The position numbers were made by a program, and so were the translations under genes. From Pseudomonadota bacterium (GTDB lineage Bacteria > Pseudomonadota > Gammaproteobacteria > Burkholderiales > Gallionellaceae), in NCBI GenBank assembly GCA_021800795.1, contig JAJYYO010000001.1, positions 156,373 through 220,372 on the forward strand: 64,000 nucleotides of DNA. Reading direction: 5' to 3'. The notes under the pieces are model-generated. The model did no database searches. It saw only the letters and a list, made by a program, of their open reading frames with translations, and had not been told where the DNA came from. Below, piece by piece: positions 36,961 through 62,558 of this stretch (its first letter is position 1; each line of letters begins with the position of its first letter).

Positions 36961-37036
36961 GGGTGCTTAGCTCAGTTGGTAGAGCGTCGCCCTTACAAGG
37001 CGAATGTCGGCGGTTCGAACCCGTCAGCACCCACCA
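36961..37036 (+). tRNA. tRNA-Val (TAC), copy 1
   Basis: A 76-base cloverleaf with acceptor stem GGGTGCT/AGCACCC, D-arm AGCTCAGTTGGTAGAGC, anticodon TAC in CCTTACAAGG, T-arm GGTTCGAACC and encoded CCA. It is identical to the copy at 39242-39317. Confidence 0.97.
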
Positions 37037-37080
37037 AAGTGGTAAGCGGAGCGCAGTAAGTGACAAGTGGTACAAGTTTT

Positions 37081-37157
37081 GGAGTGGTAGTTCAGTTGGT
37101 TAGAATACCGGCCTGTCACGCCGGGGGTCGCGGGTTCGAGTCCCGTCCACTCCGCCA
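37081..37157 (+). tRNA. tRNA-Asp (GTC), copy 1
   Basis: A 77-base cloverleaf with anticodon GTC in CCTGTCACG, T-arm GGGTTCGAGTCCC and encoded CCA. It is 44 bases after tRNA-Val and is followed by a rho-independent terminator. Identical to the copy at 39370-39446. Confidence 0.97.
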
Positions 37158-37162
37158 AATTG

Positions 37163-37187
37163 AGGCGAACGAAAGTTCGCCTTTTTT
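37163..37187 (+). terminator. Rho-independent terminator after tRNA pair 1
   Basis: AGGCGAAC and GTTCGCCT form a stem with a GAAA loop and are followed by a T-run. Confidence 0.85.
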
Positions 37188-37199
37188 CATATCCGTCAG

Positions 37200-37284
37200 T
37201 AACGTTACATTCGCGTAGCGATTCGTTCGCTTCCTCGCCCGTTTACGGGAGAGGATTGTGGCGAGGGTTACGGGCATGGCGGAT
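37200..37284. repeat. Dispersed intergenic repeat, copy R2
   Basis: In reverse orientation it reads GCCATGCCCGTAACCCTCGCC...CTCTCCCG...CGAACGAATCGCTACGCG, sharing order and borders with the copy at 40783-40908. It lies between the first tRNA pair and ppiD and contains a hairpin around CTCTCCCGT/ACGGGCGAG. Confidence 0.65.
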
Positions 37285-37339
37285 TCAATATCCGGTGTGG
37301 CAACTTTGCCATGCCCGTTCTTAAACGCCTGGGGTCGCT

Positions 37340-39235
37340 ATGTTTGATTTTGTTCATGAGAAAAAAAGATTGGTACAAATAGTCCTGCTGTTGATTATTT
37401 TGCCCTTTGCGTTTTTCGGTGTGGATTCGTATCGTCATTCGGGCGACACGGATGCGCCTGCAACCGTGAACGGCACAAAAATTACCCGTCAGGAGTTCGA
37501 TAGCGCATTGCGCCAGCAGCAAGACAGGATGCGCCAGATGCTGGGTGCCAATTTTGATCCGGCCATGTTTGACAAGCCGGATATGAAACGCGCCATCCTG
37601 GACAATCTCATTGCGCAACGTCTGCTGATCGATCAGGCACGTGCCGCAGGTTTAACGGTGACCGATGCGCAGGTCGCGCAGGTGATAGCCGGCATAGATG
37701 CGTTCAAAGAGGGCGGCAAATTCGACAAGGCTCGCTATGTCAGTGCGCTGGCTGAAAAAGGCATGACGCCCGTGATGTTCGAGGCGCGCGTCAAGGACGA
37801 GCTGGTCGGTCAGCAGCTGCGTGAAGCCTATACGCAGAATGGTTATGCTGCCAATACCGTTGCAGACAGGGTGATCGCGATAAACGAAGAGCAGCGCATC
37901 ATCAGCGTGGCGCAGGTGGCCTTGCAATCCTTTATTGATCAGGCAAAAGTCGATGAAGCGGAAATCAAGAACTATTACGATCAGAATCAGAAGGATTTTC
38001 AGGTGCCTGAGCAGGTCAGGGTCGAGTACGTAAAGTTTTCAAGCGCCGATCTGATGGACAAAGCCGATGTCAAGCCTGAAGATGCAAAAAAATATTACGA
38101 TGAACATCAGGCTGAATTTTCTACGCCTGAACAGCGCGAGGCTTCACATATTCTGTTGACGGTTGCGGCTACTGCACCGCAGGCGGAGCAGGATGCCGTC
38201 AAGGCCAGGGCTTCGGAGTTGCTCAAACAGGTCAGGCAACACCCCGACCAGTTTGCCGAACTTGCCAGAAAAAATTCGCAAGACCCCGGTTCCGCTGCAA
38301 AAGGCGGCGATCTCGGTCTGTTTGGCCGCGGCATGATGGTGAAACCCTTCGATGATGCCGTTTTTGCCATGAAACCAGGTGAAATCAGCGACCTGGTCAA
38401 GTCGGACTTCGGCTATCACATCATCAAACTGACGGCGATCAAGGCAGCGCATATCTCGCCGTTTGACGATGTGAGTGCGGGAATATTGTACAAGCTGCGC
38501 CAGCAGAAGGCAGCGGATTCGTTTGCCGAGCTGGCGGACAAGTTCGGCAATACCGTCTATGAGCAAAGCGATACCTTGCAGCCGGCAGCAACGCTTGCGG
38601 GCGTCAAGGTCGCACAGAGCGGCTGGTTGACCAAAGGATCGGTGGCGGATGATGTCTGGACGGCTAAAATGATGCAGGCGGTGTTCAGCGACGACGTCAT
38701 CAAAAACAAGCGCAACACCGCGGCGATTGAAGTGGCGCCCAATACGCTGGTTGCTGCGCGCATGCTGGAGCACAGGGCGGCCAGCGTGAGCAGTCTGAAA
38801 GATGTGCAGGATGTGATCAAACAAAAATTATTACATCAAAAAGCGCTGGACATGGCCGTAAAACAGGGTAAAATGCTGCTCGGTCAATTGCAGCAGGGTG
38901 GTCATCCTGCGCTGGATTGGTCGGTTGCTCAGACGATTACTCATGCTCAACATGGTGCGCTGGATGTAGCGATGGTGCGCCAGTTGTTTCAGGCAGACAG
39001 TACCAAACTACCCCAGTATATCGGTGCGGAATCCCCACAGGGCGGTTACACGCTGGTGCGCGTAGATGCCGTCAAGGGTGGCGAGAAACCCGATGATGCG
39101 AAGCGTGCGCGTTACGCCCAGCAGTTGCGTCAGATGACCGGTGAAGAGATGTTTCAGGCTTACCTGGCGGATGCAAGGAGCCGTGCCAAGATTGTGGTGA
39201 AGTTGCCTGAAGCGGCGGCACCAGCAGGACAGTAA
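37340..39235 (+). CDS. ppiD: PpiD-like periplasmic folding chaperone
   Basis: A 631-residue inner-membrane protein facing the periplasm. One membrane helix lies at about residues 13-31 ([19 protein letters not shown]), then a SurA-like N-terminal chaperone domain, a central parvulin domain ([12 protein letters not shown]...[42 protein letters not shown]) and a C-terminal chaperone region. It associates with SecYEG and assists folding of newly exported proteins. Flanked on both sides by identical tRNA-Val/tRNA-Asp pairs, which is unusual. Confidence 0.9.
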
Positions 39236-39241
39236 TAATAC

Positions 39242-39317
39242 GGGTGCTTAGCTCAGTTGGTAGAGCGTCGCCCTTACAAGGCGAATGTCGGCGGTTCGAA
39301 CCCGTCAGCACCCACCA
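39242..39317 (+). tRNA. tRNA-Val (TAC), copy 2
   Basis: Identical over all 76 bases to the copy at 36961-37036, starting six bases after the ppiD stop codon. Confidence 0.97.
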
Positions 39318-39369
39318 GACAAAACCGGTAAAAACGAGCCGGTAGCTTGTAGCATGAAGTAGCAGTTTT

Positions 39370-39446
39370 GGAGTGGTAGTTCAGTTGGTTAGAATACCGG
39401 CCTGTCACGCCGGGGGTCGCGGGTTCGAGTCCCGTCCACTCCGCCA
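39370..39446 (+). tRNA. tRNA-Asp (GTC), copy 2
   Basis: Identical over all 77 bases to the copy at 37081-37157. The spacer after tRNA-Val differs from that in the first pair (52 against 44 bases), though both end GTTTT just before the tRNA. Confidence 0.97.
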
Positions 39447-48314: not shown

Positions 48315-50180
48315 TCAGATTTCGATACGCGTACCCATTTCGATGACGCGATTGGTCGGAATCTTGAAGAAGTCCGCTGCATTCATGGCATTCTTTGACA
48401 ATACCAGGAACAGCCGTTCGCGCCATTTTGTCATGCCGGGGTTAGGGCTGGAGACGATCATGGCGCGCGATATGAAGAACGAGGTGCTCATCATGTCGAG
48501 CGGCAATCCCCAGGCGGTGCACAGCTTCAGGGCTTCCGGCAGATCGGGCATCTCCATGAAGCCGTAGAAGACTCTCACGCGATAGAAATTTTTTCCCATG
48601 TCATCGACCAGCAGACGGTTGCCCGGAGTGACATAGGGTTTGTCCTCGACGATCACGGTCAGCAGGATGTTGCGTTCGTGCAGCACCTGATTGTGTTTGA
48701 TATTGTGCAACAGCGCGGAGGGCGCACCTTCTCCGATGCTGGTCAGGAATATAGCCGTACCCGGCACATGGTTGATATTGTCCGCGTCATCCAGGACGAG
48801 CTGAATCGGTACGGATTGCCGGGAAATTTCCTCGAACAGTAATTTGCGTCCTTTTTTCCAGGTGGTCAACACGGTAAATGAGATGACCGCGATGCCAATC
48901 GGGAACCAGCCGCCCTGCGGTATCTTCATGGCGTTGGCGGCAAAGAAGGTGATGTCGGTGACGAACAGTACGGAAATCAGGGGGATGACAATGGCCCATG
49001 ACCAGCGCCAGTACAATATCATTACAAAGCTGATCATGACGGTGGTGATGGTCATGGTGCCCGTAACGGCGATGCCATACGCTGCCGCCAGATTGCCGGA
49101 GCTCTGAAAGGCGAATACCAGGAACAGCACGGCCAGATATAAGGTCCAGTTGGTCAGGGGCACATAGATCTGTCCTTGCGCCTTGTCGGAGGTCTGGCGA
49201 ATTTCCATGCGCGGCAGAAAGCCCATTTGCACCGATTGATTGGCGATGGAAAATGCGCCGGAAATCACGGCTTGTGATGCGATCACCGTTGCTGCGGTGG
49301 CGAGCAGTACCATGGGCACCAGTGCCCAGGCAGGGGCGAGCAGATAGAAAGTGTTTTCGATGGCTTTGGGGTTGTGCAGCAGCAGCGCGCCCTGGCCGAA
49401 ATAATTCAACACCAGTGCAGGAAGCACGAAATAGAACCATGCCAGGCGTATCGGATATTTGCCGAAGTGTCCCATGTCGGCATACAGCGCTTCGCCGCCG
49501 GTGATGGCAAGCACGATGGAGCCCAAAGCCAGAAAGGAGATCCAGGGATCTGCAATCAGGAAACGGTAAGCGTAAACAGGATTAAGCGCCCACAATACCT
49601 GCGGGCTTTTGAAGATGGACAGCAGGCCGAAGCCACCCAGACAGACAAACCAGACGATCATGATCGGGCCGAATGCCATGCCGACCGTTGCGGTGCCGCG
49701 TTTTTGAATAAAAAACAATCCGGTCAGCACGATGACCGTGAGGGGTAGTATATAGATCTTGAACTGGTGTGAGACCAGATCCAGTCCCTCGACTGCCGAA
49801 AGCACAGAAATCGCCGGTGTGATCATGCCATCGCCGAAAAACAGCGCGGCGGCAAGTACGCCGAGCGCCGTGACCAGCCATTTTATTCTGGGATTTTTTG
49901 CGGTCAGTTCACTGACCAGCGCCAGCAAGGCCAGCGAGCCGCCTTCTCCACGGTTATCCGCACGCATGATGATGGTCACGTATTTGAACGATACCAGCAG
50001 CATGATGGTCCAGAACATCATCGACAGCACGCCCAGAATATTCGCTTCGATGACAGGCAAGGGGCTTGCGCCGGTGAAGGTCGTTTGCAGCGCATATAGC
50101 GGGCTGGTGCCGATGTCGCCGAACACCACGCCGATTGCACCCAGCACCAGCGTAGGCATTTTTTGATGTGTGCCGCTCAT
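48315..50180 (-). CDS. kup: Kup-type potassium uptake protein
   Basis: A 621-residue proton-coupled K+ importer. The start [21 protein letters not shown] is the Kup signature, about twelve membrane helices follow, and a C-terminal cytosolic domain of about 170 residues ends the protein. GGGAGAG precedes the ATG. Upstream of it is a 734-base interval without recognised genes but with a repeated motif. Confidence 0.95.
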
Positions 50181-51283: not shown

Positions 51284-51323
51284 GGTTTCGAAGCATGCTG
51301 ATTGTAACACGCATCAGACGGGT

Positions 51324-51370
51324 ATCAGGTCGAGAAGTTCCATCGGATGATTGATTATTGCGTGCATGAA
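51324..51370 (-). pseudogene. gph: Remnant of a gph 3' end next to ssrA
   Basis: On the minus strand it encodes HAIINHPMELLDLIPV and a stop, almost the same as the last residues of the intact phosphoglycolate phosphatase encoded at 61091 (HAIIDHPMELLHLIART). Over 51324-51364 the DNA matches 61104-61144 with only about four mismatches in 41 bases. The rest of the gene is missing. It marks one side of the hydrogenase region and could be an old attachment-site copy. Confidence 0.75.
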
Positions 51371-51478
51371 ACGGCCGCAGGTCGGTTGTTGCTGTGTCGT
51401 ACGAGAGGGGTGTATTGACACCTATAGTAAAAATGGTCAAGATTCAAAATCTTATTTGGCTCTTATTGGGGTTGCATC

Positions 51479-51778
51479 ATGGAACAATTATTGGCTGGCC
51501 GTTCTGTCAGTATCACCGAGCTTAAACGCAGTCCCAGCGCCTTTATCGAGCAGGCGGGTGATGAAGCCGTCGCGGTGCTGAACCATAACCGCCCGGCGGC
51601 CTACCTGGTGCCTGCGGCACTGTATATGCGTCAAATGGCCTTGCTGGAAACGGCTGGGTTGCGTGTAGCCATCGCAGCCAGCCGACGTGATCCGCGTCCC
51701 GCTATTCCGGCAGAGCGGATGTTCGACGAGATGGATGCGGCAATCGATCAGGTGGTTAAAGAACAAGCAGATGCGTAA
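51479..51778 (+). CDS. Phd/YefM-family antitoxin (StbD-like)
   Basis: A 99-residue antitoxin: the DNA-binding N-terminus reads SVSITELKRSPSAFIEQAGDEAVAVLNHNRPAAYLVP, typical of YefM/StbD proteins, and the C-terminal part would wrap a RelE/ParE toxin. Its TAATG stop/start junction leads into a ParE-like toxin gene that is frameshifted, so this antitoxin now has no intact partner beside it. It lies at the ssrA-proximal end of the proposed island. Confidence 0.78.
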   Translation: MEQLLAGRSVSITELKRSPSAFIEQAGDEAVAVLNHNRPAAYLVPAALYMRQMALLETAGLRVAIAASRRDPRPAIPAERMFDEMDAAIDQVVKEQADA

Positions 51779-52080
51779 TGGGTGTCGTGGCACAATTCGC
51801 TGCGCTGGCGCGCAAGGATTCACTGGAAATCGCCCGTTATATTGCTCGCGATAATCCACAGCGCGCCCATTCCTTCGTAATTGAACTGCGCCGGCGCGTT
51901 GCTGGCCGAACAGCCTGAATTGGGTGCTCCAAAGCAGAGTGGGCGGATGGTTTGCGTATGCTTTCTCACGGGCGTTATTTGATTTTCTTTTCTGCGACAG
52001 AGGGCGGTATCCTGATAGAGCTGCACAGCGCGCGCAACCTCTCTCCGTTGTTTGATCATTCGGGTGATTCGGCGGCATAA
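51778..52080 (+). pseudogene. RelE/ParE-family toxin, inactivated by frameshifts
   Basis: The frame starting at 51778 gives QFAALARKDSLEIARYIARDNPQRAHSFVIELRRR and then shifts; a second frame continues LLAEQPELGAPKQSGR and a third ends SHGRYLIFFSATEGGILIELHSARNL. Joined together they make a normal ParE/RelE-like toxin of about 100 residues with net length preserved. Two compensating frameshifts, and stops in each single frame, make a functional product unlikely unless they are sequence errors. Confidence 0.75.
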
Positions 52081-52299
52081 GTTTGCCAATTGATTACCTG
52101 AATTTTATCAATAGCGCAGGGTTTGCTGGTAGATTGCGAGAATGGATTTATAGCAGGGATGCCGAAGGCAGGAACGGTCAATTGGCTACTCACAAAGCGG
52201 ATGCCGCTCAGGCGGTAGAATGTGCCAATTGCGGTCATTCGTGAAAGACACAAAACCTTAGCGTCCTTCAAGGTATTGCATCTACGCTGTTTATAATGC

Positions 52300-52973
52300 C
52301 CTAACGCAGCGTTGCCTGCCGTGTTTTCATTTCGCGAGACAAAATCAAGCTGTGGCCCGCACACATGGCAGGCCAGCGGTTGTGCATGAAAGCGCCGGTT
52401 AGTCGGGTCTTCATATTCTGCACGGCAGGCTTTGCATAATGTAAAGCTGGTCATCGTAGTATGCGGCCTGTCATAGGGCATGCCGGTGATCAGCGTATAG
52501 CGCGGCCCGCATTGGGTGCAATTGATGAACGGGTAGCGATAGCGACGGTTATTGGGATTGAGCATCTCGCGGCGACAGTCGTCGCACAGAAAATTGTCCG
52601 GAGGAATGTGGATGTTGCCATGCAAGGATTCTTTACTGGGCAGAATGGAAAAGCTGTTCAATTCGCGCGGTGGTATATGCACGCATGAAACTATATAGGG
52701 GCGCGCCAGCGGTAGCGTCTCAGAAATGAGGGCAGCAGCAAACGCATCCAGTGCATCAGTTTTGCCTTGTGCCTCAACCAATACTTCACCGGTGAGATTC
52801 TGCACGATGCCTTGCAGGCCTAAACGCTGCGCCAGGTTATACACAAAGGCGCGATAGCCCACGCCCTGTACTCGCCCACCTATCAGTCAGCGCCGGGATT
52901 CGTGCAATGAAAGGGAAAAATGCGGCCCGTCAATATTCATGTGCATGACGGGTGAGTGAAACAATTGCGACAT
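52300..52973 (-). pseudogene. hypF: Truncated hypF, hydrogenase maturation carbamoyltransferase
   Basis: Matches only the N-terminal third of HypF: the acylphosphatase signature GGRVQGVGYRAFVYNLAQ and both zinc-finger motifs (CDDCRREM...CTQCGPRYT and CKACRAEY...CHVCGPQL). There is an in-frame TGA at 52887-52889 between the probable start (52973) and the acylphosphatase signature. After CGPQL homology stops and the YrdC-like and carbamoyltransferase domains are absent. The remaining frame runs on to 52056 in unrelated sequence. HypF makes the cyano ligands of the [NiFe] site, so a working copy must exist elsewhere if the hydrogenase is active. Confidence 0.82.
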
Positions 52974-53009
52974 AGCGGATACAACATACGAAGGCTGGGC
53001 TGATTAAAG

Positions 53010-53591
53010 TCAGGCGGCGGTAAGCAGGTAGACGCCGCTCACTGCGATAACAATGCCCAAAGCCTGAGCGATGACCGCATGACGCTTGCGCGATGCAACA
53101 CCCATAGCAATACCGATCAGATGCAGCGTCGCGGTCGCAGCGAGAAAACCCGGCGCATAAGTCGTAGGGGATGCCGAACCAGGCAATTCAAGGCCGTGCG
53201 CGTAGCCGTGCAGCAAGCCGAACAGCGCGGTGATCGCCATGCTGAGCGTTGCGGGCAGCTGCAATGAAAGTGCAACCAGCAATCCCAGTGCCAGTACAGA
53301 AGTGGCGATGCCGGCCTCGACCAAAGGCAGTGAAGGCCAGCGCATCGCGATAGCGGCCCCGATGGCGAGCATGCTCATGAACGTGGCGGGCAGCAGCCAG
53401 ATTTTTTTACCGCCGCCTTGGGCCGCCCAGAGTCCGACCGCGAGCATCGCAAGCAGGTGATCGATTCCCGAAAACGGGTGCATCAGTCCTGCTGAAAAAC
53501 CCGACACATCGTGGCCGGGGTGGGCGATAGCAACGTTGCTCAAAGAAAATAGAAAAAACACTGCCAGAAGTTTTGTGGTCGAAATGCGCAT
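53010..53591 (-). CDS. hupE: HupE/UreJ-family nickel permease
   Basis: A 193-residue membrane protein with signal peptide (ending AIA, followed by the mature HPGHD) and about six helices. The metal-binding signature HPFSGIDHLLAMLAVGLWAAQ is intact, and LLHGYAHGLELPG later supplies further histidines. HupE proteins import nickel for [NiFe] hydrogenase. AAGGAG precedes the ATG at 53591, and the gene follows the large subunit gene directly on the same strand, as the last gene of the operon. Confidence 0.88.
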   Translation of the reverse strand: MRISTTKLLAVFFLFSLSNVAIAHPGHDVSGFSAGLMHPFSGIDHLLAMLAVGLWAAQGGGKKIWLLPATFMSMLAIGAAIAMRWPSLPLVEAGIATSVLALGLLVALSLQLPATLSMAITALFGLLHGYAHGLELPGSASPTTYAPGFLAATATLHLIGIAMGVASRKRHAVIAQALGIVIAVSGVYLLTAA

Positions 53592-53608
53592 GTTGTTCTC
53601 CTTGAGCA

Positions 53609-55381
53609 TTATTTAATTTGAATCTCGACCAGCTCTTCGCCATTTGGATCGGTCACATGCACTGCGCAGGCGATACAAGGATCGAAACTGTGGATGGTGC
53701 GCAATATCTCGATTGGCTGTTTCGGGTCGTACAACTGGTGGCCTTTCAGGGCCGCTTCGTAAGGGCCTTCCTGGCCCTGCGCATCGCGCGGGCCGGCATT
53801 CCAGGTGCTGGGCACCACCGCCTGATAATTGTCTATTTTTTCATCCTTGATCACAACCCAGTGCGCCAATGCGCCGCGCGGCGCTTCCGTGTAGCCTACG
53901 CCTTTGCTAATCTGTGGCCAGGTGGAGGGATCCCACAGCGTGTCATTGTGCGTCTTTACATCGCCTGCCTTGATGTTGGCGATCAGATGGTCATACCAGC
54001 CCTGCATGCTGTCTGCGAAGATTTTTGTCTCCAGCGTGCGGGCGGCGGTGCGTCCCAGCGTCGAGTAAAGCGCGGTCACCGGCAGATCGAGTGTCTTCAG
54101 TGTCATTCCGACCAGTTCGCGGGTCTGTTCATGACCCCTGGCATACAGCATCAGCACCCGCGCAAGCGGTCCCACTTCCATCGGCTTACCCTGCCAGCGC
54201 GGAGACTTCAGCCACGAGTAGGATGCATCCGTGTCGAGGTTTGCATAGGGTGGTTTGGGCCCGGTGTAATTCAGCGCTGTCTCCCCCTTGTAGGGATGCA
54301 GGCCTTTTTCCTTGCCGACGCTGTAGTCGTACCAGGAGTGCGAGACAAATTCCTGTATCTGATTTTCTGCATTCAGATCGACCGGGTGGATGGTGGACAG
54401 GTCGCGATTAAGGATCACCCCCGATGGAATGAGGAACGAGGCCGGATCGTCCATGCCTGTAGCCGGGAAGTCGCCGTAGGCGAGAAAATTGCCGACCCCT
54501 TCGCCCTGCTTGCTCCAGTCCTTGTAAAAACCCGCAATCGCCAGCGTGTCCGGCACATACACCTGATCCACAAAATCGCGCATCTGGCGGATGATGTTCT
54601 GTACGGTTTCAAGTCCTGTCATATTGAGCGAAGTGGCCGCTTCTCCTCCGCGAAAATGCGGACCGTTACCGTTCCCCTCATGCTGGGGATGCACGCTGAT
54701 GGCGCACGGCACGCCGCCGACCAGAAAATTGGGGTGGGGATTTTTGCCGCCGAAAATCGCGTGCAGTTTTGCCACATCGCGCTGCCAGGCCAGCGCATCC
54801 AGGTAATGCGCGACCGCCATCAGATTGGCTTCAGGTGGCAGCTTGTAGGCCGGATGTCCCCAGTATCCGTTGGCGAAAATACCGAGTTGCCCGCCTTCGA
54901 CGAAGGTCTTGATGCGCTTTTGCACATCGGCGAAATAACCGGGCGAGGATTTTGGATAGGAGGGGCTGACAGTCTGCGCAAGTTCAGAGGTGGCCTTCGG
55001 GTCGGCTTTCAAGGCCGATACTACATCCACCCAGTCCAGCGCGTGCAGATGATAGAAATGCATCACATGGTCGTGCACAAATTGCGCGGCGATCATCAGG
55101 TTGCGGATCAGTTGCGCGTTGGGCGGCACCTCAATTTTCAGCGCATCTTCCACCGCGCGCACCGAAGCGATGCCGTGCACCAGCGTGCAGACGCCGCAGA
55201 TGCGCTGTGCAAATGCCCATGCATCGCGCGGATCGCGGCCGCGCAAAATGATCTCGATACCGCGCACCATGGTGCCCGCACTGGAAGCGCGGATGATGCG
55301 ATTGTCGGCATCGGTCTCAGCCTCGATGCGCAAATGGCCCTCGATGCGGGTGACAGGGTCGACTACAATCGTTTGCGTCAT
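53609..55381 (-). CDS. hynL: [NiFe]-hydrogenase large subunit (Isp-type, group 1e-like)
   Basis: A 590-residue catalytic subunit. Both nickel-binding motifs are intact: RICGVC (C62, C65) near the N-terminus and DPCIACAVH (C569, C572) near the C-terminus. The 15 residues after the terminal histidine (VTDPNGEELVEIQIK) are the peptide that the maturation protease removes. It splits or forms H2 at the Ni-Fe(CN)2CO centre on the periplasmic side, carried there by the Tat signal of the small subunit. It overlaps isp2 by four bases. The order small subunit-isp1-isp2-large subunit is the HynS-Isp1-Isp2-HynL arrangement known from Thiocapsa and Allochromatium. Confidence 0.94.
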   Translation of the reverse strand: MTQTIVVDPVTRIEGHLRIEAETDADNRIIRASSAGTMVRGIEIILRGRDPRDAWAFAQRICGVCTLVHGIASVRAVEDALKIEVPPNAQLIRNLMIAAQFVHDHVMHFYHLHALDWVDVVSALKADPKATSELAQTVSPSYPKSSPGYFADVQKRIKTFVEGGQLGIFANGYWGHPAYKLPPEANLMAVAHYLDALAWQRDVAKLHAIFGGKNPHPNFLVGGVPCAISVHPQHEGNGNGPHFRGGEAATSLNMTGLETVQNIIRQMRDFVDQVYVPDTLAIAGFYKDWSKQGEGVGNFLAYGDFPATGMDDPASFLIPSGVILNRDLSTIHPVDLNAENQIQEFVSHSWYDYSVGKEKGLHPYKGETALNYTGPKPPYANLDTDASYSWLKSPRWQGKPMEVGPLARVLMLYARGHEQTRELVGMTLKTLDLPVTALYSTLGRTAARTLETKIFADSMQGWYDHLIANIKAGDVKTHNDTLWDPSTWPQISKGVGYTEAPRGALAHWVVIKDEKIDNYQAVVPSTWNAGPRDAQGQEGPYEAALKGHQLYDPKQPIEILRTIHSFDPCIACAVHVTDPNGEELVEIQIK

Positions 55382-56661
55382 GGCATCTCCCTCGAATTGA
55401 TTTCTGCTGTCGCAAGGTGATCGGCGATCATCTCAGTCAGTCCTGTAACATGCACATTCATCTTGTAGTGTTCAAGCCCCTCTTCCAGCACGATACGGCA
55501 ATTGGCGCAGGCGGTGACCAGCGTTTTGGCGCCTGTCGCTTCAAGTTGCGACTTCTTGGTCTTGAATGCAACAAGGCGCAAGTTTTCCGCTTCATCGATT
55601 GCGCTCACGCCGCCCCCGCCGCCGCAACACCAGTTCATTTTGCCCGGGTCGCTCATCTCAACGTAGTTGTTTGCCACCAGTTTTAGAAGTTTGCGCGGCT
55701 CTTCCAGCACACCGCCGCGCCGCACCAGCTGGCAGGGATCATGAAAGGTGAGTCTGGCTTCCTCGAAGCCCGAGATCTTGAGTAGGCCCTGATCGTAAAA
55801 GCCATCCAGCACTTCGAGTATATGCAGCACGTCAAAGGTGTAGGGGCGGCCGATCAGGTTAGGTCCTTCCCAGCGCAATGCGGTATAGGCATGACCGCAT
55901 TCCGGGCTGATCACGGTTTTGACCTTGAGTTTTTCCGCGCCATCGACGATGCGCTGAACAAGCACGCGCGCAATGTCGGAAACGCCGATCTGTATGCCGC
56001 TGTTGGTGGCTTCGAAAGCGTCCGAGCACAGCGTCCAGCTTTTCTTTGCCTGCTTCATGATGCGGGCAATGGCCGCCAGATATTCGGGAAAACTGATGAT
56101 CTCCATCGAGGACATCAGCACCATGTATTCCGCACCCGTCACATCCAGCGGAATCTCAATGCCGGTATCTTCAAGGACATGTTTCATCTGCGCTTTCACC
56201 GCAGGCAGACGCACGCCCATCGGGCTGCCGATTTCCACAGAACGTCCGGCGGCTTCAACCAGTCCGTCGGGTGCATGACCCGAGATGGCCATGCCCTCGC
56301 GCAGTTTGCGCACCATGTAGACGATGTCATTGCCCACTGGGCAGACCAGTGAGCAGCGGCCGCACAGCGTACAACTGTCATACACCAGCGGCTGCCATGC
56401 GTCCAGTTCATCATCGGTGACAGGTTTGGATAAACCCAGCATTTTCGTCAGCCTGCCGGTCAGGGTATATTCCTGCTGGTAGACACGGCGCAAGGGTTCG
56501 AGCTTGTGGATGGGCGTGTATTTAGGGTCGCCCGTTTCGGTGTAAAACAGACAGGCCTCGGCGCACAGGCCGCAATGCACGCAGCTGCTGAAAAAACTGG
56601 CGATGGGCGCATCGATGATTTCCTTCAGGACACCGATGCCTTTGTTGAGTGTAGCGCTCAT
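55378..56661 (-). CDS. isp2: Isp2, HdrD/DsrK-like iron-sulfur protein of the hydrogenase
   Basis: A 427-residue cytosolic electron carrier. Two [4Fe-4S] motifs lie near the N-terminus (CVHCGLCAEAC at C27-C37 and CTLCGRCSLVC), and the C-terminal half carries CCG-type motifs (CCGGGGG, then CANCR) as in heterodisulfide reductase HdrD and DsrK. It probably exchanges electrons between the cytosolic side of Isp1 and a thiol/disulfide or other cytosolic partner. It overlaps both neighbouring genes by four bases. Confidence 0.88.
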   Translation of the reverse strand: MSATLNKGIGVLKEIIDAPIASFFSSCVHCGLCAEACLFYTETGDPKYTPIHKLEPLRRVYQQEYTLTGRLTKMLGLSKPVTDDELDAWQPLVYDSCTLCGRCSLVCPVGNDIVYMVRKLREGMAISGHAPDGLVEAAGRSVEIGSPMGVRLPAVKAQMKHVLEDTGIEIPLDVTGAEYMVLMSSMEIISFPEYLAAIARIMKQAKKSWTLCSDAFEATNSGIQIGVSDIARVLVQRIVDGAEKLKVKTVISPECGHAYTALRWEGPNLIGRPYTFDVLHILEVLDGFYDQGLLKISGFEEARLTFHDPCQLVRRGGVLEEPRKLLKLVANNYVEMSDPGKMNWCCGGGGGVSAIDEAENLRLVAFKTKKSQLEATGAKTLVTACANCRIVLEEGLEHYKMNVHVTGLTEMIADHLATAEINSREMP

Positions 56662-57317
56662 ACTGCCACCCCCTTCTTCGCATTCACATCGCCGTTATAC
56701 CAGCGCGATCCCCACAATGTAAAGACGTGCATCAGCTTGGTGAAAGGCAGAAAAACCAGCAGCAGTTCGACGCTTATAATATGCAGCGCCAGCATCGCAG
56801 TGTAGGGCAGCAGCAGGTGATGGGTTGCAAGATAGCCGGTCAGTACCGGCAAAAAGGTCAGCATCCAGGCGGCGTAATCTTCAAAGGTGGAGAGGAAGCG
56901 CTTGACCGGTTTGTTGATGCGCTCCACCAGTACCAGCACCATGGCGGCCAGCGTCACAACTGTCGCTGCATCAATGAACTGAGCGGGCAGATTCGGCCAC
57001 CACACGCCGGTCAGCGACTGTATCAGCTTGATGTGCTGGGCGGACAACAACACGACGATGAACAGGCCGATATGAAACACATAGCCTGCCACATAACTTG
57101 CAGGCGATTTCTTGAACATGCCGGGCGGCGGCAAGGATCGGCGAAATACGGTATGCAGCCCGGAGGCGCCGGCGCGATGGCGTGGTGTGGCAAGATCCGG
57201 CTTGCGTCCCAATGTGTAGATTTCCAGCAGGCGCAACAGTGTGCCGAGCACGAATATCCCGATGGCGATATTCAGGCCCATGCCGCGTACCCAGGTCAGA
57301 AACAGAACTTCATTCAT
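56658..57317 (-). CDS. isp1: Isp1, NarI/DsrM-like membrane cytochrome b of the hydrogenase
   Basis: A 219-residue integral membrane protein with about five helices and histidines placed as in NarI/DsrM (YVFHIGLF, THHLLL, ALHIISVE) for haem b binding. It should carry electrons from the periplasmic hydrogenase to Isp2 or to quinone. It overlaps the small subunit gene by eight bases and isp2 by four. Confidence 0.85.
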   Translation of the reverse strand: MNEVLFLTWVRGMGLNIAIGIFVLGTLLRLLEIYTLGRKPDLATPRHRAGASGLHTVFRRSLPPPGMFKKSPASYVAGYVFHIGLFIVVLLSAQHIKLIQSLTGVWWPNLPAQFIDAATVVTLAAMVLVLVERINKPVKRFLSTFEDYAAWMLTFLPVLTGYLATHHLLLPYTAMLALHIISVELLLVFLPFTKLMHVFTLWGSRWYNGDVNAKKGVAV

Positions 57318-58401
57318 GTTGCTTCTCCAGGTCGGCGATAGTCGCTGTTACATGCACCGATTTTGCCGCCCTTTTTTTGAAGCGGTTAGCGATTGAAACA
57401 CCGACACCGATAGCCGCCCCTGCGATTGCCGCATCAGTACTCAGGCTCAGCGCGCTGGCCGGCATAGACAGCGCGCTGTAGAAACTGCCCGCATCCCAGA
57501 AATGCGGCTCGGAACAACCGAGGCAGCCGTGCCCGGATTCAATCGGGAAGCTGGTCCCGCCATTCCATTTGGTCGTAGCGCAGGCGTTGTGGGTCGTCGG
57601 CCCCTTGCAGCCCAGTTCAAACAGACACCAGCCATTACGCGCACCTTCATCGTCAAACGTCTTGGCAAATTTCCCCTGATCATAAAAAGGTCGGCGATAG
57701 CAACGGTCGTGAATGGTTTCCCCATAAAATGACCTGGGCCGACCCAGATCATCCAGTTCAGGTAACGCGCCGAAGGTAAGGTAGTGAGCGAGCACGCCGG
57801 TGATCACCGCAGGGATCGGCGGGCAGCCGGAAATATTGACGACGGGTTTGTCCTTGATGATGTCGGATACGGACACCGCACCGGTCGGATTGGGTTTTGC
57901 GTTCGGGATGCCGCCGAAGGATGCGCAGGTGCCGACCGCGATGATCGCCGCCGCACCCTTGGCGGCTTCCTGCAACAGGTCGAGGTTGGTGCGCCCGGCG
58001 ATGGTGGAGTAGATACCGCCGTCATGCAATGGTATAGAGCCATCCACCACCAGCAGATACTTGCCATAGAAATTCCGCATCGCATCTATACGCGACTTTT
58101 CAGCAGCAAAACCTGAGGCGGCCTGCAACGTGTGATGATAGTCGAGCGAAATCATGTCGAAGATCAGGCTCTCCAGCGTCGGCGTGTACGAGCGGGTCAG
58201 CGACTCGGTGCAGCCGGTGCATTCCTGAAATGACAACCAGATCACCGACGGTCGCGTAGCCTTGCTCATTGCGTCGGCAATCGCATTCGCTGTGCCTGGC
58301 GGCAGCGCCATGATAGAGGCCATTGCGGCACAGAACTTCAAGAACGCGCGGCGGCTGATGCCCTGCTCCCTGAGTCGTTCTCCCAGCGTTTCATGATCCA
58401 T
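57310..58401 (-). CDS. hynS: [NiFe]-hydrogenase small subunit (Tat-exported)
   Basis: A 363-residue iron-sulfur subunit. A Tat signal (SRRAFLKFCAAMASIMALPP) heads it. The proximal cluster motif is CTGCTES (C61, C64), so the extra cysteines of oxygen-tolerant hydrogenases (CTCCS) are absent; distal and medial ligands follow in HDRCYRRPFY, LGCKGPTTHNAC and GHGCLGCSEP. A C-terminal helix (AAIAGAAIGVGVSIANRF) anchors it to the membrane. I chose the second of two adjacent ATGs because of its spacing from GAGG. A copy of the dispersed repeat lies just upstream. Confidence 0.93.
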   Translation of the reverse strand: MDHETLGERLREQGISRRAFLKFCAAMASIMALPPGTANAIADAMSKATRPSVIWLSFQECTGCTESLTRSYTPTLESLIFDMISLDYHHTLQAASGFAAEKSRIDAMRNFYGKYLLVVDGSIPLHDGGIYSTIAGRTNLDLLQEAAKGAAAIIAVGTCASFGGIPNAKPNPTGAVSVSDIIKDKPVVNISGCPPIPAVITGVLAHYLTFGALPELDDLGRPRSFYGETIHDRCYRRPFYDQGKFAKTFDDEGARNGWCLFELGCKGPTTHNACATTKWNGGTSFPIESGHGCLGCSEPHFWDAGSFYSALSMPASALSLSTDAAIAGAAIGVGVSIANRFKKRAAKSVHVTATIADLEKQHE

Positions 58402-58421
58402 CATGCACCTCGCTCTTAAAT

Positions 58422-58495
58422 AAAACTCGCGCAAGCGTTCGTCTGTTCCCTCTCCCTGTGGGAGAGGGTTTGGGTGAGGGAAAGCGGGTATGGCT
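58422..58495. repeat. Dispersed intergenic repeat, copy R5
   Basis: Contains CTCGCGCAAGCGTTCG and the hairpin CCCTCTCCCTGTGGGAGAGGG followed by TTTGGGTGAGGGAA, the same parts as copy R4 in reverse orientation. It separates the HupH-like gene from the small subunit gene and overlaps the HupH-like stop codon. Confidence 0.65.
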
Positions 58496-59123
58496 AGTTG
58501 TCAGTATTCGCATCAATGCCATGCCCGCCAAGTTGAGCCTGCAATCTTTCCAGTCCTGCATGCACATCTTCAGGCTGACTCTTGATGATTTCGGGAATCG
58601 TCGTGATTTCCAGCATATCCGCCACGATATCGCCCTCCACGTTGTAGTGGGTCACCCACCATACGCCGGGATATTGCGTTTCAAAAATTTCGCTGGGACC
58701 GATGGCATCGATACGCACGGATACTTCTCCCCTGCCCAGTGTCAGGCGCAGCTGTTCATATTCACCCGGTGCAAAAGGCAGGCTGCTAAGAGCTATCATG
58801 CCGGTTTCATGATTGTGATCCAGCTTTTCAAGACACGTGACAATCTCGACCAGCAGTGCTCGGATGTTGCCGATGGAATACGCTTCGTTAACATGAAACT
58901 CGCGCAAGCGTTCGTTTGTTCGGCTTCGCCCCCCTCGCTGCGCTCTCCCCTCCGGGAGATAACCAGCGACTTTGCCATCGTCTTGTGATGGCTTAGTCGA
59001 ATGGCTAATCGTTCCATCAGGGTTTGGGTGAGGGAAACAGGCATGATCAGATTCATTGTCAGGAGCGATAATTTCTCCGTGCCTGATGGTCTGAACTTGG
59101 ATAGGGATGGTTTGAGCGTTCAT
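58494..59123 (-). CDS. HupH/HyaF-like hydrogenase accessory protein carrying a repeat insertion
   Basis: A 209-residue protein. Residues from about 85 to the end form one HupH/HyaF domain (ALLVEIVTCLEKL...LSSLPFAPGEYEQLRLTLGRGEVSVRIDAIG...YPGVWWVTHYNVEG), involved in assembly of the small subunit in other species. Residues about 27-78 (FPHPNPDG...SHSTKPS...GYLPEGR...NERLREFHVN) are not protein-like; they are a translation of the dispersed intergenic repeat (58886-59045), which has inserted without breaking the frame. E. coli HyaF is longer, with two such domains. The ATG at 59123 overlaps the protease stop by four bases and has GAGGAG upstream. Confidence 0.82.
   Translation of the reverse strand: MNAQTIPIQVQTIRHGEIIAPDNESDHACFPHPNPDGTISHSTKPSQDDGKVAGYLPEGRAQRGGRSRTNERLREFHVNEAYSIGNIRALLVEIVTCLEKLDHNHETGMIALSSLPFAPGEYEQLRLTLGRGEVSVRIDAIGPSEIFETQYPGVWWVTHYNVEGDIVADMLEITTIPEIIKSQPEDVHAGLERLQAQLGGHGIDANTDN
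58886..59045. repeat. Dispersed intergenic repeat, copy R6, inside a coding sequence
   Basis: Reverse orientation; contains CTCACCCAAACCCTGATGGA, ACTAAGCC, CTGGTTATCTCCCGGAGGGG and ends CGCGAGTTTCATGTTAACG, so it shares blocks with R1 and R4. Its sequence supplies about 50 codons of the HupH-like gene. Confidence 0.75.
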
Positions 59124-59599
59124 GCGCACCACTCCTCAATCAATTGCAATGCCTGATTACAGGCAAGCTTGATTGCGCCGGCAACAGGAGGCGATGGCAT
59201 TTCACCCCACGCAATAGTTTGCGGCTGTATGCCGATCAGTGCGCGATGGCGCGGTAGTTGATCTGTGAGCAGCGCAATGGCCATCAGGTCGATCAGGCTC
59301 ACCTCATGCACGCTGCATTTTCGGTTGCTGCCGATGAAATCATCCATACGCTCACCTTCGAAAACCCTGGTAGTGCCGGGCTTTCCGTCGTAGTGTGCCG
59401 CATCGATGACGATCAGATTGTCCGCATCCTCGATGGCACCCGCCAGCGTGAAGCTCAACGTGCCGCCGTCCATCAGTTCGATGTCGTTGCGTTGTTCTGT
59501 CAGGCCGGCAAGCTGCCGTATCGCATGAACGCCCGCACCTTCATCCTGCAACAGAATGTTGCCGATGCCCAGTATCAAGGTTTTAGTATGGACTGTCAT
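59120..59599 (-). CDS. Hydrogenase maturation protease (HyaD/HupD family)
   Basis: A 159-residue endopeptidase that cleaves the C-terminal peptide of the large subunit after nickel insertion. The start GIGNILLQDEGAGVHAI holds a nickel-binding Glu, and later acidic and histidine residues occur in IDAAHYDGKPG and CSVHEVSL, in the expected order. First gene of the hydrogenase operon. The start at 59599 avoids a 12-codon extension lacking any conservation. Confidence 0.88.
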   Translation of the reverse strand: MTVHTKTLILGIGNILLQDEGAGVHAIRQLAGLTEQRNDIELMDGGTLSFTLAGAIEDADNLIVIDAAHYDGKPGTTRVFEGERMDDFIGSNRKCSVHEVSLIDLMAIALLTDQLPRHRALIGIQPQTIAWGEMPSPPVAGAIKLACNQALQLIEEWCA

Positions 59600-59718
59600 G
59601 ACTAAATCCAGTTGTACCCGATGGGAACAGCGCATGATGCAGGATCTGCGCGCTAATACGAGCAGATTACACCGTTATGTGTAAATCACAACTGAGTAAT
59701 TTTATCAACTTAACAAAG

Positions 59719-59747
59719 TTAACGTATCACCTTCACAGGGCTATACT
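59719..59747 (+). promoter_or_regulatory. Possible sigma-70 promoter of hypC
   Basis: TTAACG (59719-59724) and TATACT (59742-59747) with a 17-base spacer lie 30 bases before the hypC start. The neighbouring TTAACAAAGTTAA (59710-59722) is a small palindrome that could be an operator for this divergent promoter region. Confidence 0.45.
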
Positions 59748-59777
59748 GCGTTATGTTTTAACCTCAGGAAAACGGCC

Positions 59778-60020
59778 ATGTGTTTAGGTATTCCCATGCA
59801 AATTGTCGCGATCATTGGCTACAATGCACGCTGCACAGCAAAGGGCGTGATGCGCGACGTGAGCCTGTTTATGCTGCAGGATGAACCCATCACCGTGGGT
59901 GATTTCGTGATGGTGCATGTGGGCTATGCCTTGCAGAAGTTGACCGAACAGGAAGCCGGTTTGACCTGGGAATTGCTCGATGAATTGCTGGCAAATGATC
60001 CGGATGAACAAGGCAACTGA
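59778..60020 (+). CDS. hypC: Hydrogenase maturation chaperone HypC
   Basis: An 80-residue protein beginning [10 protein letters not shown], with the essential C2, and containing the family core (RDVSLFMLQ...[16 protein letters not shown]). HypC carries the Fe(CN)2CO unit with HypD and delivers it to the large subunit precursor. AGGAAA precedes the start. It is divergent from the hydrogenase operon and followed four bases later by a broken hypD. Confidence 0.93.
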
Positions 60021-60024
60021 GGTC

Positions 60025-60345
60025 ATGAAAAGTGCACAACACTGGCTGAACCTTATCCGCGCGCTGCCGCTCACGCGCCCAGTGCGCATCATGAATGTGT
60101 GCGGCGGACACGAGCGCGCTATCACAATGGCGGGACTGCGCAGTGCATTGCCGAAAAACGTTGAGTTGATACCCGGACCCGGTTGTCCGGTATGCGTATG
60201 CCCTGAAGAGGATGTGTACCGCAACTGGCCATGCATGCAGGCGTGATACTGGCAGCCTTCGGCGACATGCTGCGCGTGCCGGTGAATGTGCCCAAAAAGA
60301 AGCGCGCTCGCTGGAACAGGCCAAGGGCGCCGATATACGACCGAG
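60025..60345 (+). pseudogene. hypD: hypD, 5' fragment with frameshifts
   Basis: The first frame gives the HypD N-terminus ([21 protein letters not shown]...[19 protein letters not shown]) and stops at 60246. A second frame continues [19 protein letters not shown] and a third AR-SLEQAKGADIRP, so at least two frameshifts are present. All later parts of the normal protein (about 370 residues), including its iron-sulfur cluster motif, are missing. The ccdAB module starts right after it. HypD is needed to build the Fe(CN)2CO group. Confidence 0.85.
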
Positions 60346-60371
60346 TATTTCGAGCATCGTCATGATCTGCC

Positions 60372-60412
60372 TTGACTTGATTTCTATGATGCGTATGATT
60401 ATGCGTATCATT
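60372..60412 (+). promoter_or_regulatory. Promoter and tandem operator of the ccdAB operon
   Basis: TTGACT (60372-60377) and TATGAT (60394-60399) have a 16-base spacer. Two 12-base direct repeats, ATGCGTATGATT and ATGCGTATCATT (60389-60412), overlap the -10 and end just before the ribosome binding site. This is the layout of an autoregulated toxin-antitoxin operator. Confidence 0.55.
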
Positions 60413-60428
60413 GTTTAAGGAGTTCGTC

Positions 60429-60680
60429 GTGCAAATCCATTTAACCTCGTCCGCTAAAAAAGGCCGTCTGTCCTTATCAATCGATCAGGATTTGCTGGAT
60501 CGCTTTGAGCCCTACAAGCATCAGGTCAATTTTTCAGCACAGGCTGAGCAGATGCTTGCCCGGATTTTGGAAGAGTTTGAAAATCGCGCCTGGGTGGAAC
60601 GCAATTCAGAGGCGCTGCTGGCGCATGGAAGAGACATTGCCGTAACCGGCCCGGCTGGCGCTGAGTTTGACCGGATCTGA
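60429..60680 (+). CDS. ccdA: CcdA-family antitoxin
   Basis: An 83-residue antitoxin. The N-terminus (IHLTSSAKKGRLSLSIDQDLLDRF) is ribbon-helix-helix-like and would bind the tandem operator, while the C-terminus (ENRAWVERNSEALLAHGRDIA) matches the CcdB-binding tail of CcdA. The GTG at 60429 has AAGGAG six bases upstream; a TTG at 60411 is in frame but lies before that site. Confidence 0.85.
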   Translation: MQIHLTSSAKKGRLSLSIDQDLLDRFEPYKHQVNFSAQAEQMLARILEEFENRAWVERNSEALLAHGRDIAVTGPAGAEFDRI

Positions 60681-60682
60681 TT

Positions 60683-60994
60683 GTGGCTCAGTTCGATATT
60701 TATCCCAATCCAGGCACAAAACGCGCAGAAATACCCTATCTTGTCGCCGTCCAGAACGACCATATCACCAGCAAAACCGGTGCGACCGTCGTCATTCCAC
60801 TGCGTGCCAATGCGCAACCTGTCGATGTGATGGCACCGCTCATTGAGGTGTCCGGAGCAGGGCGCTTTGTGCTGTCCACCGACGAAATTTTTGTGATAGA
60901 TGCCTCCCGGCTCAAATCTCCCGTAGCAAAACTGAGTGCAGAGGATCGCGCAAAAATCAGGCCCGCCATAGACAAAGTCATCGGCGAATACTGA
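60683..60994 (+). CDS. ccdB: CcdB-family gyrase-poisoning toxin
   Basis: A 103-residue toxin matching CcdB over its length (FDIYPNP at the start, YLVAVQNDHI, VVIPLRAN, the final AEDRAKIRPAIDKVIGEY region). CcdB traps DNA gyrase on DNA. It begins with GTG, two bases after the ccdA stop codon, and both genes look intact. The chromosomal gyrA lies only 1.7 kb away. Confidence 0.88.
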   Translation: MAQFDIYPNPGTKRAEIPYLVAVQNDHITSKTGATVVIPLRANAQPVDVMAPLIEVSGAGRFVLSTDEIFVIDASRLKSPVAKLSAEDRAKIRPAIDKVIGEY

Positions 60995-61063
60995 TTATCG
61001 AGGCCCGTGAGGGTCAGACTCGATTTTCTTGAGCCAGCCATTTTCTGACCTCCCGTAATAGTC

Positions 61064-61081
61064 ACGGTTTTTTAAAACCGT
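61064..61081. terminator. Possible terminator hairpin between ccdB and gph
   Basis: ACGGTTTT and AAAACCGT with a two-base loop, lying between the convergent ccdB and gph genes. The T and A runs are within the stem, so it could serve either direction. Confidence 0.5.
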
Positions 61082-61090
61082 AATTGCTGT

Positions 61091-61846
61091 TTATGTTCGC
61101 GCAATCAGGTGGAGAAGTTCCATCGGGTGATCGATTATCGCGTGTGCGTCCCATTCGTTGAGTTTTGCATCTGCACTGATGTAGCCGTAACGGGCGATCA
61201 CGCCGCGCATCAGTGCCGCGTTGGCCGCCTGCATGTCGCGCAGATCGTCGCCCAGATACAGGCAGTGTTCAGTTGCTACGCCGATGAGTTCGCAGGCTTT
61301 TTTCATCGGTTCAGGATGCGGTTTGGCGTTTGCGCAGGTGTCGCCGCTGACCAGGCAGGCCGCGCGATCCGCGTAACCCAGCGCTTGCATCAGGGGGAGG
61401 GTATAGATGTGCGGTTTGTTGGTGACAATGCCCCAGGGAATGCCGCGCTGTTCCAGTTCGTCGATCAACTGATCCATGCCGCTGAACAGTTGTGTCAGCA
61501 CGCAGATGTTGCTCGCATAATGTTCGAGAAAAATGTCGCGAAGCGCCTCGAAATCCGGCGACTCAGGTGTGATATTCATGCCGACCTTGAGCAGCCCTGC
61601 CGAGCCGTGCGAGGCCTGCGGGCGCAGCACTTCGAGCGGCAGCGGCGGCAGGTTACGCGAGGCTCTTGTGTAATTTAAGGCTGCGGCAAGATCGGGCGCG
61701 GTGTCGGCGAAGGTGCCGTCAAGGTCGAACAAAACCGCTTTGACCTCAGAAGACAGAGGACTGACGACAGAAGACAGAATATTGTTTGCCGCTGCGCGGC
61801 ACGACATATCAGGAGCGCAGCCAAGCTGCGACAAAACTTCTGTCAT
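61091..61846 (-). CDS. gph: Phosphoglycolate phosphatase
   Basis: A HAD-family phosphatase that recycles 2-phosphoglycolate; about 251 residues from the start chosen. Motif I is FDLDGTFADTAPDL, motif II lies in WGIVTNK, motif III/IV in KPHPEPM and YLGDDLRDM. The conserved part begins VKAVLFDLDGT, but the 30 or so codons before it lie in an inverted-repeat element (61747-61870), so the natural start seems to have been replaced. ATG 61846, just after the ubiG stop, is the most reasonable start; others at 61882 or 61807 are possible. A fragment of the gene end is duplicated at 51324-51370. Confidence 0.88.
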   Translation of the reverse strand: MTEVLSQLGCAPDMSCRAAANNILSSVVSPLSSEVKAVLFDLDGTFADTAPDLAAALNYTRASRNLPPLPLEVLRPQASHGSAGLLKVGMNITPESPDFEALRDIFLEHYASNICVLTQLFSGMDQLIDELEQRGIPWGIVTNKPHIYTLPLMQALGYADRAACLVSGDTCANAKPHPEPMKKACELIGVATEHCLYLGDDLRDMQAANAALMRGVIARYGYISADAKLNEWDAHAIIDHPMELLHLIART

Positions 61847-61870
61847 CTGTATTCTATCCTCTGTCATCTG
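61747..61870. repeat. Inverted-repeat element at the ubiG/gph junction
   Basis: The arm 61747-61780 (CAGAAGACAGAGGACTGACG onward) and the arm 61837-61870 are imperfect inverted copies (roughly three quarters identical) rich in GACAGA motifs, with a 56-base centre. It covers the codons before the conserved gph N-terminus and the last codons of ubiG. Confidence 0.55.
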
Positions 61871-62558
61871 AACGGCAGGCAACCATATAATTCACGCTGG
61901 TATCCTTGCCCAGTGAATAAATTCTGGATATCGGGTTGTAGCTCATGCCGGTCAGATCGGCAACCGTCAATCCCGCATTGCGGCAGGATTGCGCAACTTC
62001 GGAAGGTTTCAGGAATTTGGCGTAGTCATGGGTGCCGCGCGGCAGCATTTTCAAAATGTATTCCGCGCCGATCACGGCAAACAGATAGGACTTCGGATTG
62101 CGGTTCAGTGTCGAAAAAAATACCCAGCCGTCCGGTTTGACCAGTTTTGCGCAGGCTGTAATCACGCTGTCAGGGTCCGGCACGTGTTCGAGCATTTCCA
62201 TGCAGGTGACGATGTCGAAGGAATCCGGGCATTCTGCTGCCATGTCTTCAACGGCGATCTTGCGATAGTCGACTTGTCTGCCGCTCTCCAGCAGGTGCAG
62301 TTTGGCAACTTGCAGCGCCTTGTCGGACAGGTCGATGCCGGTGACGACAGCCCCCATTCCTGCCATGCTCTCCGACAGAATGCCGCCGCCGCAGCCGATA
62401 TCCAGCACGGTCTTTCCGGCAAGTCCGGCCTGCCTGTCGATATAGTTCAGGCGCAGCGGGTTGATCTCGTGCAGCGGCTTGAATTCGCTGTTCGGGTCCC
62501 ACCATTTGTGGGCCAGTTGGGAGAATTTTTCGATTTCGACGGGATCTGCGTTGCTCAT
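61854..62558 (-). CDS. ubiG: Ubiquinone biosynthesis O-methyltransferase
   Basis: A 234-residue SAM-dependent methyltransferase acting on both O-methylation steps of ubiquinone synthesis. The opening [30 protein letters not shown] is characteristic, motif I is [13 protein letters not shown], and the C-terminal part includes [17 protein letters not shown]. The start at 62558 fits the family N-terminus. Confidence 0.94.

Follow-up and report, generated by a model that had tools for sequence, protein, structure and literature searches.

Genomic islands insert into gene ends and leave direct repeats, at tRNA, transfer-messenger RNA (tmRNA) and protein-gene sites, the latter including the dusA type, and in ssrA, the tmRNA gene, the usual insertion hot spot is the 3' end. 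Here we describe a locus of similar appearance in a 64,000-nucleotide stretch of a Gallionellaceae genome (assembly GCA_021800795.1, contig JAJYYO010000001.1, positions 156,373 to 220,372; hereafter the window), where a 9.7-kb block of accessory genes with a [NiFe] hydrogenase operon separates ssrA from gph, a phosphoglycolate phosphatase-type gene, and is bordered on both sides by a copy of the gph 3' end. The block resembles gene-end islands in its accessory genes, direct repeat, rebuilt gene and empty site in relatives. It differs from them in lying 5' of ssrA, in its host-like G+C, in the overlap of its repeat with a promoter-like element, and in that a Pfam scan of 13 frames of the block (small frames left out) brought up no integrase. 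The hexamers and spacing of that element agree with the consensus of AlgU/sigmaE-dependent promoters, GAACTT-N16/17-TCtgA, as given in a passage of PMC10651043; it is set apart from them by its location within the final codons of the gene upstream and by the extended -10 directly after it. We consider it probable that the repeat has been retained because gph and ssrA each need the repeated stretch.

The two copies of the repeat (Table 1) comprise 41 nucleotides in the same orientation, are identical at 37 of 41 positions (90%) and are spaced 9780 nucleotides apart, forming the longest direct-repeat family within 50-63 kb. In the flanks outside the 41 bp, similarity between the copies is no better than chance at both ends, and a search of the own genome with ssrA plus the fragment returned two matches, the ssrA locus and the gph end. 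The gph-side copy, which reads HAIIDHPMELLHLIART on the minus strand, provides the last codons of an intact gene, while the gph-like frame of the ssrA-side copy extends beyond the 41 bp to a stop codon of its own at 51314-51316, minus strand (HAIINHPMELLDLIPV). An earlier, sequence-only reading of the window had claimed that the gph end is duplicated in the same orientation with about four of 41 bases diverged, and that an intact gph stands at one border of the block and a second gph end at the other; both claims are borne out, at the exact coordinates. When compared with other gph ends, the ssrA-side fragment differs from that of one relative (G059; G numbers denote genomes) at 3 of 41 positions, from the window's own at 4, and from all others examined at 7 or more. 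The notion that the window's two copies are closest to each other among all species was dropped on this account.

The arrangement in relatives was examined with the window's own genome (G000; 3.2 Mb, 63 contigs) and a 150-genome family sample including 67 same-genus companions, the tally of gph and ssrA being made from the coordinates of listed gph, ssrA and large-subunit matches. In 42 of the 67 companions gph stands directly before ssrA (G119 counted here); 1.6-4.7 kb separate the genes in four (G068, G102, G123, G132), they lie on separate contigs in six (G052, G077, G086, G096, G104, G136), and 15 have no usable match to gph or ssrA. Among the matches listed, a hydrogenase large subunit lies between gph and ssrA in none of the 46 same-genus genomes with both genes on one contig, the order ssrA-hydrogenase-gph is not seen by eye in other genera, and no other genome has gph or ssrA beside a hydrogenase. 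The remaining 21 same-genus genomes include two with a strong large-subunit match, on a contig with neither gene in G104 and at a position not placed in G144. A gph tree of 62 rows groups the window with G074, G126, G138, G048, G083 and G065 (Shimodaira-Hasegawa-like approximate likelihood ratio 85, not starred); gph adjoins ssrA in all six of these genomes. A large-subunit relative of full length is present in just one of them, G126, where it lies on a different contig. The tree label 'cyclase between' was assigned by gph-ssrA distance alone for G057, G010, G041, G022, G003 and G009 and by eye for G114, the 532-aa frame concerned being actually shown for G123 and G132 only. Contigs of named relatives gave 17 loci with a best gph identity of 82%, and gph homology used in the comparisons starts near 61750. 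Judged by the arrangement in these genomes, the order in the window is derived, the block having been inserted between gph and ssrA. Insertion at the gph 3' end had been proposed earlier, together with a search for relatives in which ssrA adjoins gph and the block is missing; such relatives exist, the edge of the block lies at the gph 3' end, and a conserved order with the hydrogenase in between did not emerge among the matches listed. The other objection foreseen, relatives with the hydrogenase but without the ssrA-side fragment, had no case to rest on, as the hydrogenase occupies this site in no other genome.

What could keep a piece of gph beside ssrA? The aligned upstream regions of ssrA share GGAACTT, a spacer of 16 bases, TCTGA, a few further bases and then TGnTACAAT. 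Where gph adjoins ssrA, its Glu-Leu codons spell GGAACTT and its stop codon falls within TCTGA. Of the 40 gph genes adjoining ssrA, 38 have GAACTT or GAACTA in their last codons, against a background in the rest of gph in which CTT and CTA make up 167 of 1470 Leu codons. The same pattern occurs in four of 22 non-adjacent rows (the window, G068, G096 and G028), the G028 positive being false, with GAACTA at another position. We examined 64 upstream regions, drawn from 128 genomes with an ssrA match: the gph end runs into the promoter in 43, and 21 have no gph coding overlap. The full element is present in 36 of the former and, with a spacer of 16 in every case, in 12 of the latter, where gph coding is impossible (0.0009 per mononucleotide-shuffled upstream sequence). 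These 12 include the window, both ssrA copies of G119 (one of them beside gph, outside its frame) and representatives of four other genera (G008, G009, G010, G022). Beside ssrA in G068, GGAACTT is all that is recognisable of gph. Selection appears to act on the gph-end stretch at the DNA level, the simplest reading being that it is a promoter element of ssrA. As a universal element it was discarded, being missing in G052, G077, G096, G104 and others.

Which sigma factor could recognise such an element is a more tentative matter. Passages of the literature give GGAACTT as the -35 and TCAAA as the -10 of RpoE (PMC12153292), describe a Neisseria sigmaE that differs at -35 (PMC2893595), and list E. 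coli ssrA among constitutive promoters in a section on the stationary-phase sigma factor (PMC5493296). An RpoE-family sigma gene is encoded in the own genome (TIGR02939, 312.9 bits, cut-off 236.15). It is conceivable, and we offer it as a tentative proposal, that transcription of tmRNA in Gallionellaceae starts from a stress promoter of the AlgU/sigmaE type, with its -35 in the last gph codons and its -10 shared with the gph stop, and that the boundary admits only insertions that leave a copy, the island repeat arising from selection and not from an attachment (att) site. Should the element prove to be a genuine stress-sigma promoter, envelope stress and ribosome rescue would be linked in Gallionellaceae. 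Among the titles listed for ssrA with sigmaE or rpoE, gph as an attachment site, ssrA promoter overlap, and tmRNA with AlgU, none reports a gph-ssrA promoter overlap.

The best explanation of the locus is, in our judgement and with fair confidence, a boundary with two uses. On this account the stretch would be required by gph as its C-terminal codons and by ssrA as promoter sequence, and for that reason would be kept on both sides of any insert. An insertion that split an overlap needed by both genes and brought no further copy would harm gph or ssrA; only insertions leaving one copy on each side would be tolerated, which would explain the position of the edge and the short repeat without recourse to an integrase. 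The least certain steps are two: the second copy would have come with incoming or duplicated DNA, of local origin or from a relative, that bore a gph end together with an ssrA promoter, and redundant parts would have been lost afterwards. Relatives in which ssrA occurs as a relic or in a second copy suggest such a path of duplication and loss. In G102 (L101:3263-5225) gph is directly followed by a relic of ssrA with an internal deletion, and a full ssrA comes about 1.4 kb further on, the leader DNA before the relic and before the full gene being 79% similar over 38 bp; G119 carries two complete ssrA genes (L112:3-370, L113:2317-2684), 96.5% alike, one of them beside gph. Direct repeats beside gene ends are commonly read as integrase att sites, and here the overlap of a coding end with a promoter can explain a like signature; a genus-wide comparison can separate the two readings. 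Of the reasons for retention of the repeat considered here, a boundary used by both genes is the best supported.

Two further observations were made in relatives. The second ssrA of G119 is preceded by frames resembling mazEF and a restriction subunit by eye. In G123 and G132 (L100, L102) gph and ssrA are separated by a 532-aa frame, cyclase-like by eye, and directly after the stop codon of that frame a gph-like 3' end is still found just before ssrA.

Several points weigh against this account, or against parts of it. The gph genes of G072 and G107 adjoin ssrA and lack the GAACTT codons. Scored by the search pattern, nine of the 21 upstream regions without coding overlap and seven of the 43 adjacent ones lack the element, which is thus not indispensable; one of the seven, G142, was probably missed owing to a long leader. 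The 12 and 38 positives come from related sequences and so do not count as independent; when codon was tested against adjacency on the tree by independent pairs, only two pairs were supported (p = 1). No ssrA relic is present beside gph in the window above chance, and the path of duplication and loss is argued by analogy. A recent local duplication would not be our favoured source of the fragment, since the gph end of G059 is nearer to it than the window's own. As to the sigma factor, the element pattern occurs three times in the own genome against ten for the reversed control, with no occurrence seen facing rpoE by eye; a sigmaE regulon defined by this pattern is unsupported there.

The familiar alternative is an integrative element that carried its own gph end, entered the gph 3' end site-specifically and rebuilt the gene, its integrase being lost later, with the repeats as attL and attR. 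This we regard as unlikely, for all that it accommodates the sharp-ended direct repeat, the rebuilt gph, the empty site in relatives and the toxin-antitoxin genes just inside both ends of the block. It also draws on G068, which has a 4.7-kb insert in the same gap with a pair that is Phd-family-like by eye, and on G126, where a frame resembling a piece of a serine recombinase (L118, by eye) lies some 0.7-1.3 kb past the ssrA 3' end, showing that recombinases do reach the neighbourhood of ssrA. Against it, an integrase is missing from the scanned frames of the block, as the sequence-only reading had already held, and by eye also from the other inserts in the gap and from the listed flanks of separated gph and ssrA. 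Next to ssrA, G068 keeps only GGAACTT of gph, the one stretch that its insert and the window share there. The promoter overlap can account for the repeat without att sites. The same reading had invoked ssrA as a known hot spot; the usual site is its 3' end, and the insertion lies on the 5' side of the gene. A repeat of the ssrA 3' end on the opposite side of the block was looked for; weak matches to two tRNA-Asp genes at other places in the window were all that came up. Its proposal of an insertion by an element that rebuilt gph stands as regards the insertion and the intact gene, whereas nothing found demonstrates an integrase or an att core.

A homologous replacement, in which DNA of a relative bearing the block and, on one side of it or the other, a gph end recombined into this locus and left one gph end foreign, would produce the same final arrangement. 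We rate it as improbable, although the fragment has fewer differences from the G059 gph end than from that of the window, so that import of one copy is conceivable, and although similarity among the hydrogenase genes is discordant. HynL is 90-92% identical to its counterparts in five same-genus genomes, 89% to that of G009, which belongs to another genus, and 79-86% to those of six same-genus genomes (G035, G131, G106, G056, G139, G059); the corresponding gph identities are 61% for G009 and 68-79% for these six, a discordance that fits horizontal spread of the hydrogenase genes. Against import, the window gph taken in thirds is 77-83, 71-78 and 77-79% identical to the six clade members, with no clear break in ancestry, three against four differences in 41 bases are too few to rank, and no genome with gph or ssrA next to the hydrogenase is among the matches listed. 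An ancestral ssrA-hydrogenase-gph order with loss of the block in relatives is scarcely credible, there being no supporting point and the genomes examined contradicting it: gph stands directly at ssrA in the other members of the window's clade, the outer flanks of six relatives' hydrogenase loci are by eye unlike each other and unlike the window, and in other genera gph is adjacent to ssrA or 1.5-2.4 kb from it.

Table 1. Features at the gph-ssrA locus (coordinates of the window)
Feature	Coordinates	Strand	Basis
ssrA (tmRNA), one-piece, tag ANDENYALAA	50915..51283	-	RNA gene
Extended -10-like TGTTACAAT of ssrA, 4 nt downstream of the element	51301..51309	-	Aligned upstream regions
GGAACTT-N16-TCTGA element upstream of ssrA, AlgU/sigmaE-like; holds relic gph stop codon	51314..51341	-	Aligned upstream regions
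ssrA-side copy of 41-bp repeat, gph 3' end relic	51324..51364	-	Repeat search, upstream alignment, recount
Phd/YefM-family antitoxin; no intact partner frame after it	51479..51778	+	Pfam/NCBIfam; ParE-like remnant by eye only
Truncated hypF, reduced to acylphosphatase and HypF zinc fingers	52056..52862	-	Pfam
hupE	53010..53609	-	Pfam
hynL, [NiFe] hydrogenase large subunit	53609..55381	-	Pfam, homology
isp2-type Fe-S/CCG protein, DsrK/TmcB-like below cut-off	55378..56661	-	Pfam, NCBIfam
isp1-type membrane protein, TmcC/HmcE-like below NCBIfam cut-offs, 0 Pfam families	56658..57317	-	NCBIfam
hynS, hydrogenase small subunit	57310..58434	-	Pfam, NCBIfam
hupH, first ~80 residues overlapping inserted dispersed repeat	58494..59132	-	Pfam
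hupD, hydrogenase maturation protease	59120..59635	-	Pfam, NCBIfam
hypC	59778..60020	+	Pfam, NCBIfam
Truncated hypD, profile positions 3-66 of 351	59980..60246	+	Pfam
ccdA antitoxin	60411..60680	+	Pfam
ccdB	60683..60994	+	Pfam
gph (phosphoglycolate phosphatase-type HAD hydrolase), intact open frame	61091..61882	-	Pfam HAD_2; TIGR01449 180.7 bits, cut-off 180
gph-side copy of 41-bp repeat, last codons of intact gph HAIIDHPMELLHLI	61104..61144	-	Repeat search, recount

All genes of the block have Pfam support save the isp1-type membrane protein. Truncated hypF and hypD lie towards opposite edges, and toxin-antitoxin genes mark both, the Phd/YefM antitoxin at the ssrA end and ccdAB at the gph end. 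The earlier description of everything between the repeats as accessory agrees with this content as regards truncated hypF and hypD, the hydrogenase, hypC and ccdAB; the antitoxin is of the Phd/YefM family and not RelB, and the ParE is seen by eye only. Outside the window the edges find few counterparts: the left end of the block has only partial antitoxin-region matches in G052 and G077 and short scraps among 76 same-genus genomes, and ccdAB finds matches in seven of the 75 further genomes of the genus (one limited to 49 bp), on a contig other than that of gph in six of them, the seventh, G144, being without a gph match. In 1-kb steps the G+C is 0.51-0.59 in the block, 0.55-0.59 on the gph side and 0.46-0.56 on the ssrA side; a comparison across 51-61 kb, suggested earlier, shows no contrast between the block and the gph side, and a foreign origin argued from base composition was rejected.

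The genes for the membrane protein and the Fe-S/CCG protein separate those of the small and large subunits, as is characteristic of Isp-type [NiFe] hydrogenases (group 1e). The order hynS-isp1-isp2-hynL is like that of Isp-type operons, with hupE, hupH, hupD and hypC in addition, and the locus differs from them in the truncation of hypF and hypD at its two ends. Elsewhere in the own genome, contig C46 encodes an intact hypD, a second hydrogenase (59% identity at the large subunit) and, by eye, a hypF-like frame of 796 aa; maturation of the block hydrogenase presumably relies on the hypF and hypD copies there. Several hydrogenase types are reported for Gallionellaceae in PMC10734462. The host bacterium appears to be of the iron-oxidiser type. 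Dispersed repeats at 58423-58510 and 58888-59045 account for about 40 of the block's 45 matches to its own genome (76-92% identity), and one copy, at the start of hupH, adds about 80 residues that are poorly matched by hupH of four relatives.

The neighbourhood of ssrA is variable in other respects. In three same-genus genomes, G028, G098 and G114 (L114:2727-3059, L115:14187-14521, L116:12850-13181), the tmRNA gene downstream of gph is a circularly permuted, two-piece form that runs on the strand opposite to gph, with about 1.5 kb of unrelated DNA before it in G114, unlike the one-piece ssrA that directly follows gph on the same strand in the 42 companions counted above. Permuted tmRNA forms are known in Betaproteobacteria, according to a passage of PMC11915505. 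By eye, the other members of the window's clade have varied accessory frames downstream of ssrA. The gene kup (48315-50180) directly follows ssrA in the window and lies in the same orientation about 67 kb downstream in G065 and 103 kb downstream in G083, which suggests large inserts at the ssrA 3' side in these two genomes or a loss in the window. Further away, at 36961-39446, a tRNA-Val/tRNA-Asp pair occurs twice, flanking a 631-aa frame that is peptidyl-prolyl isomerase-like by eye.

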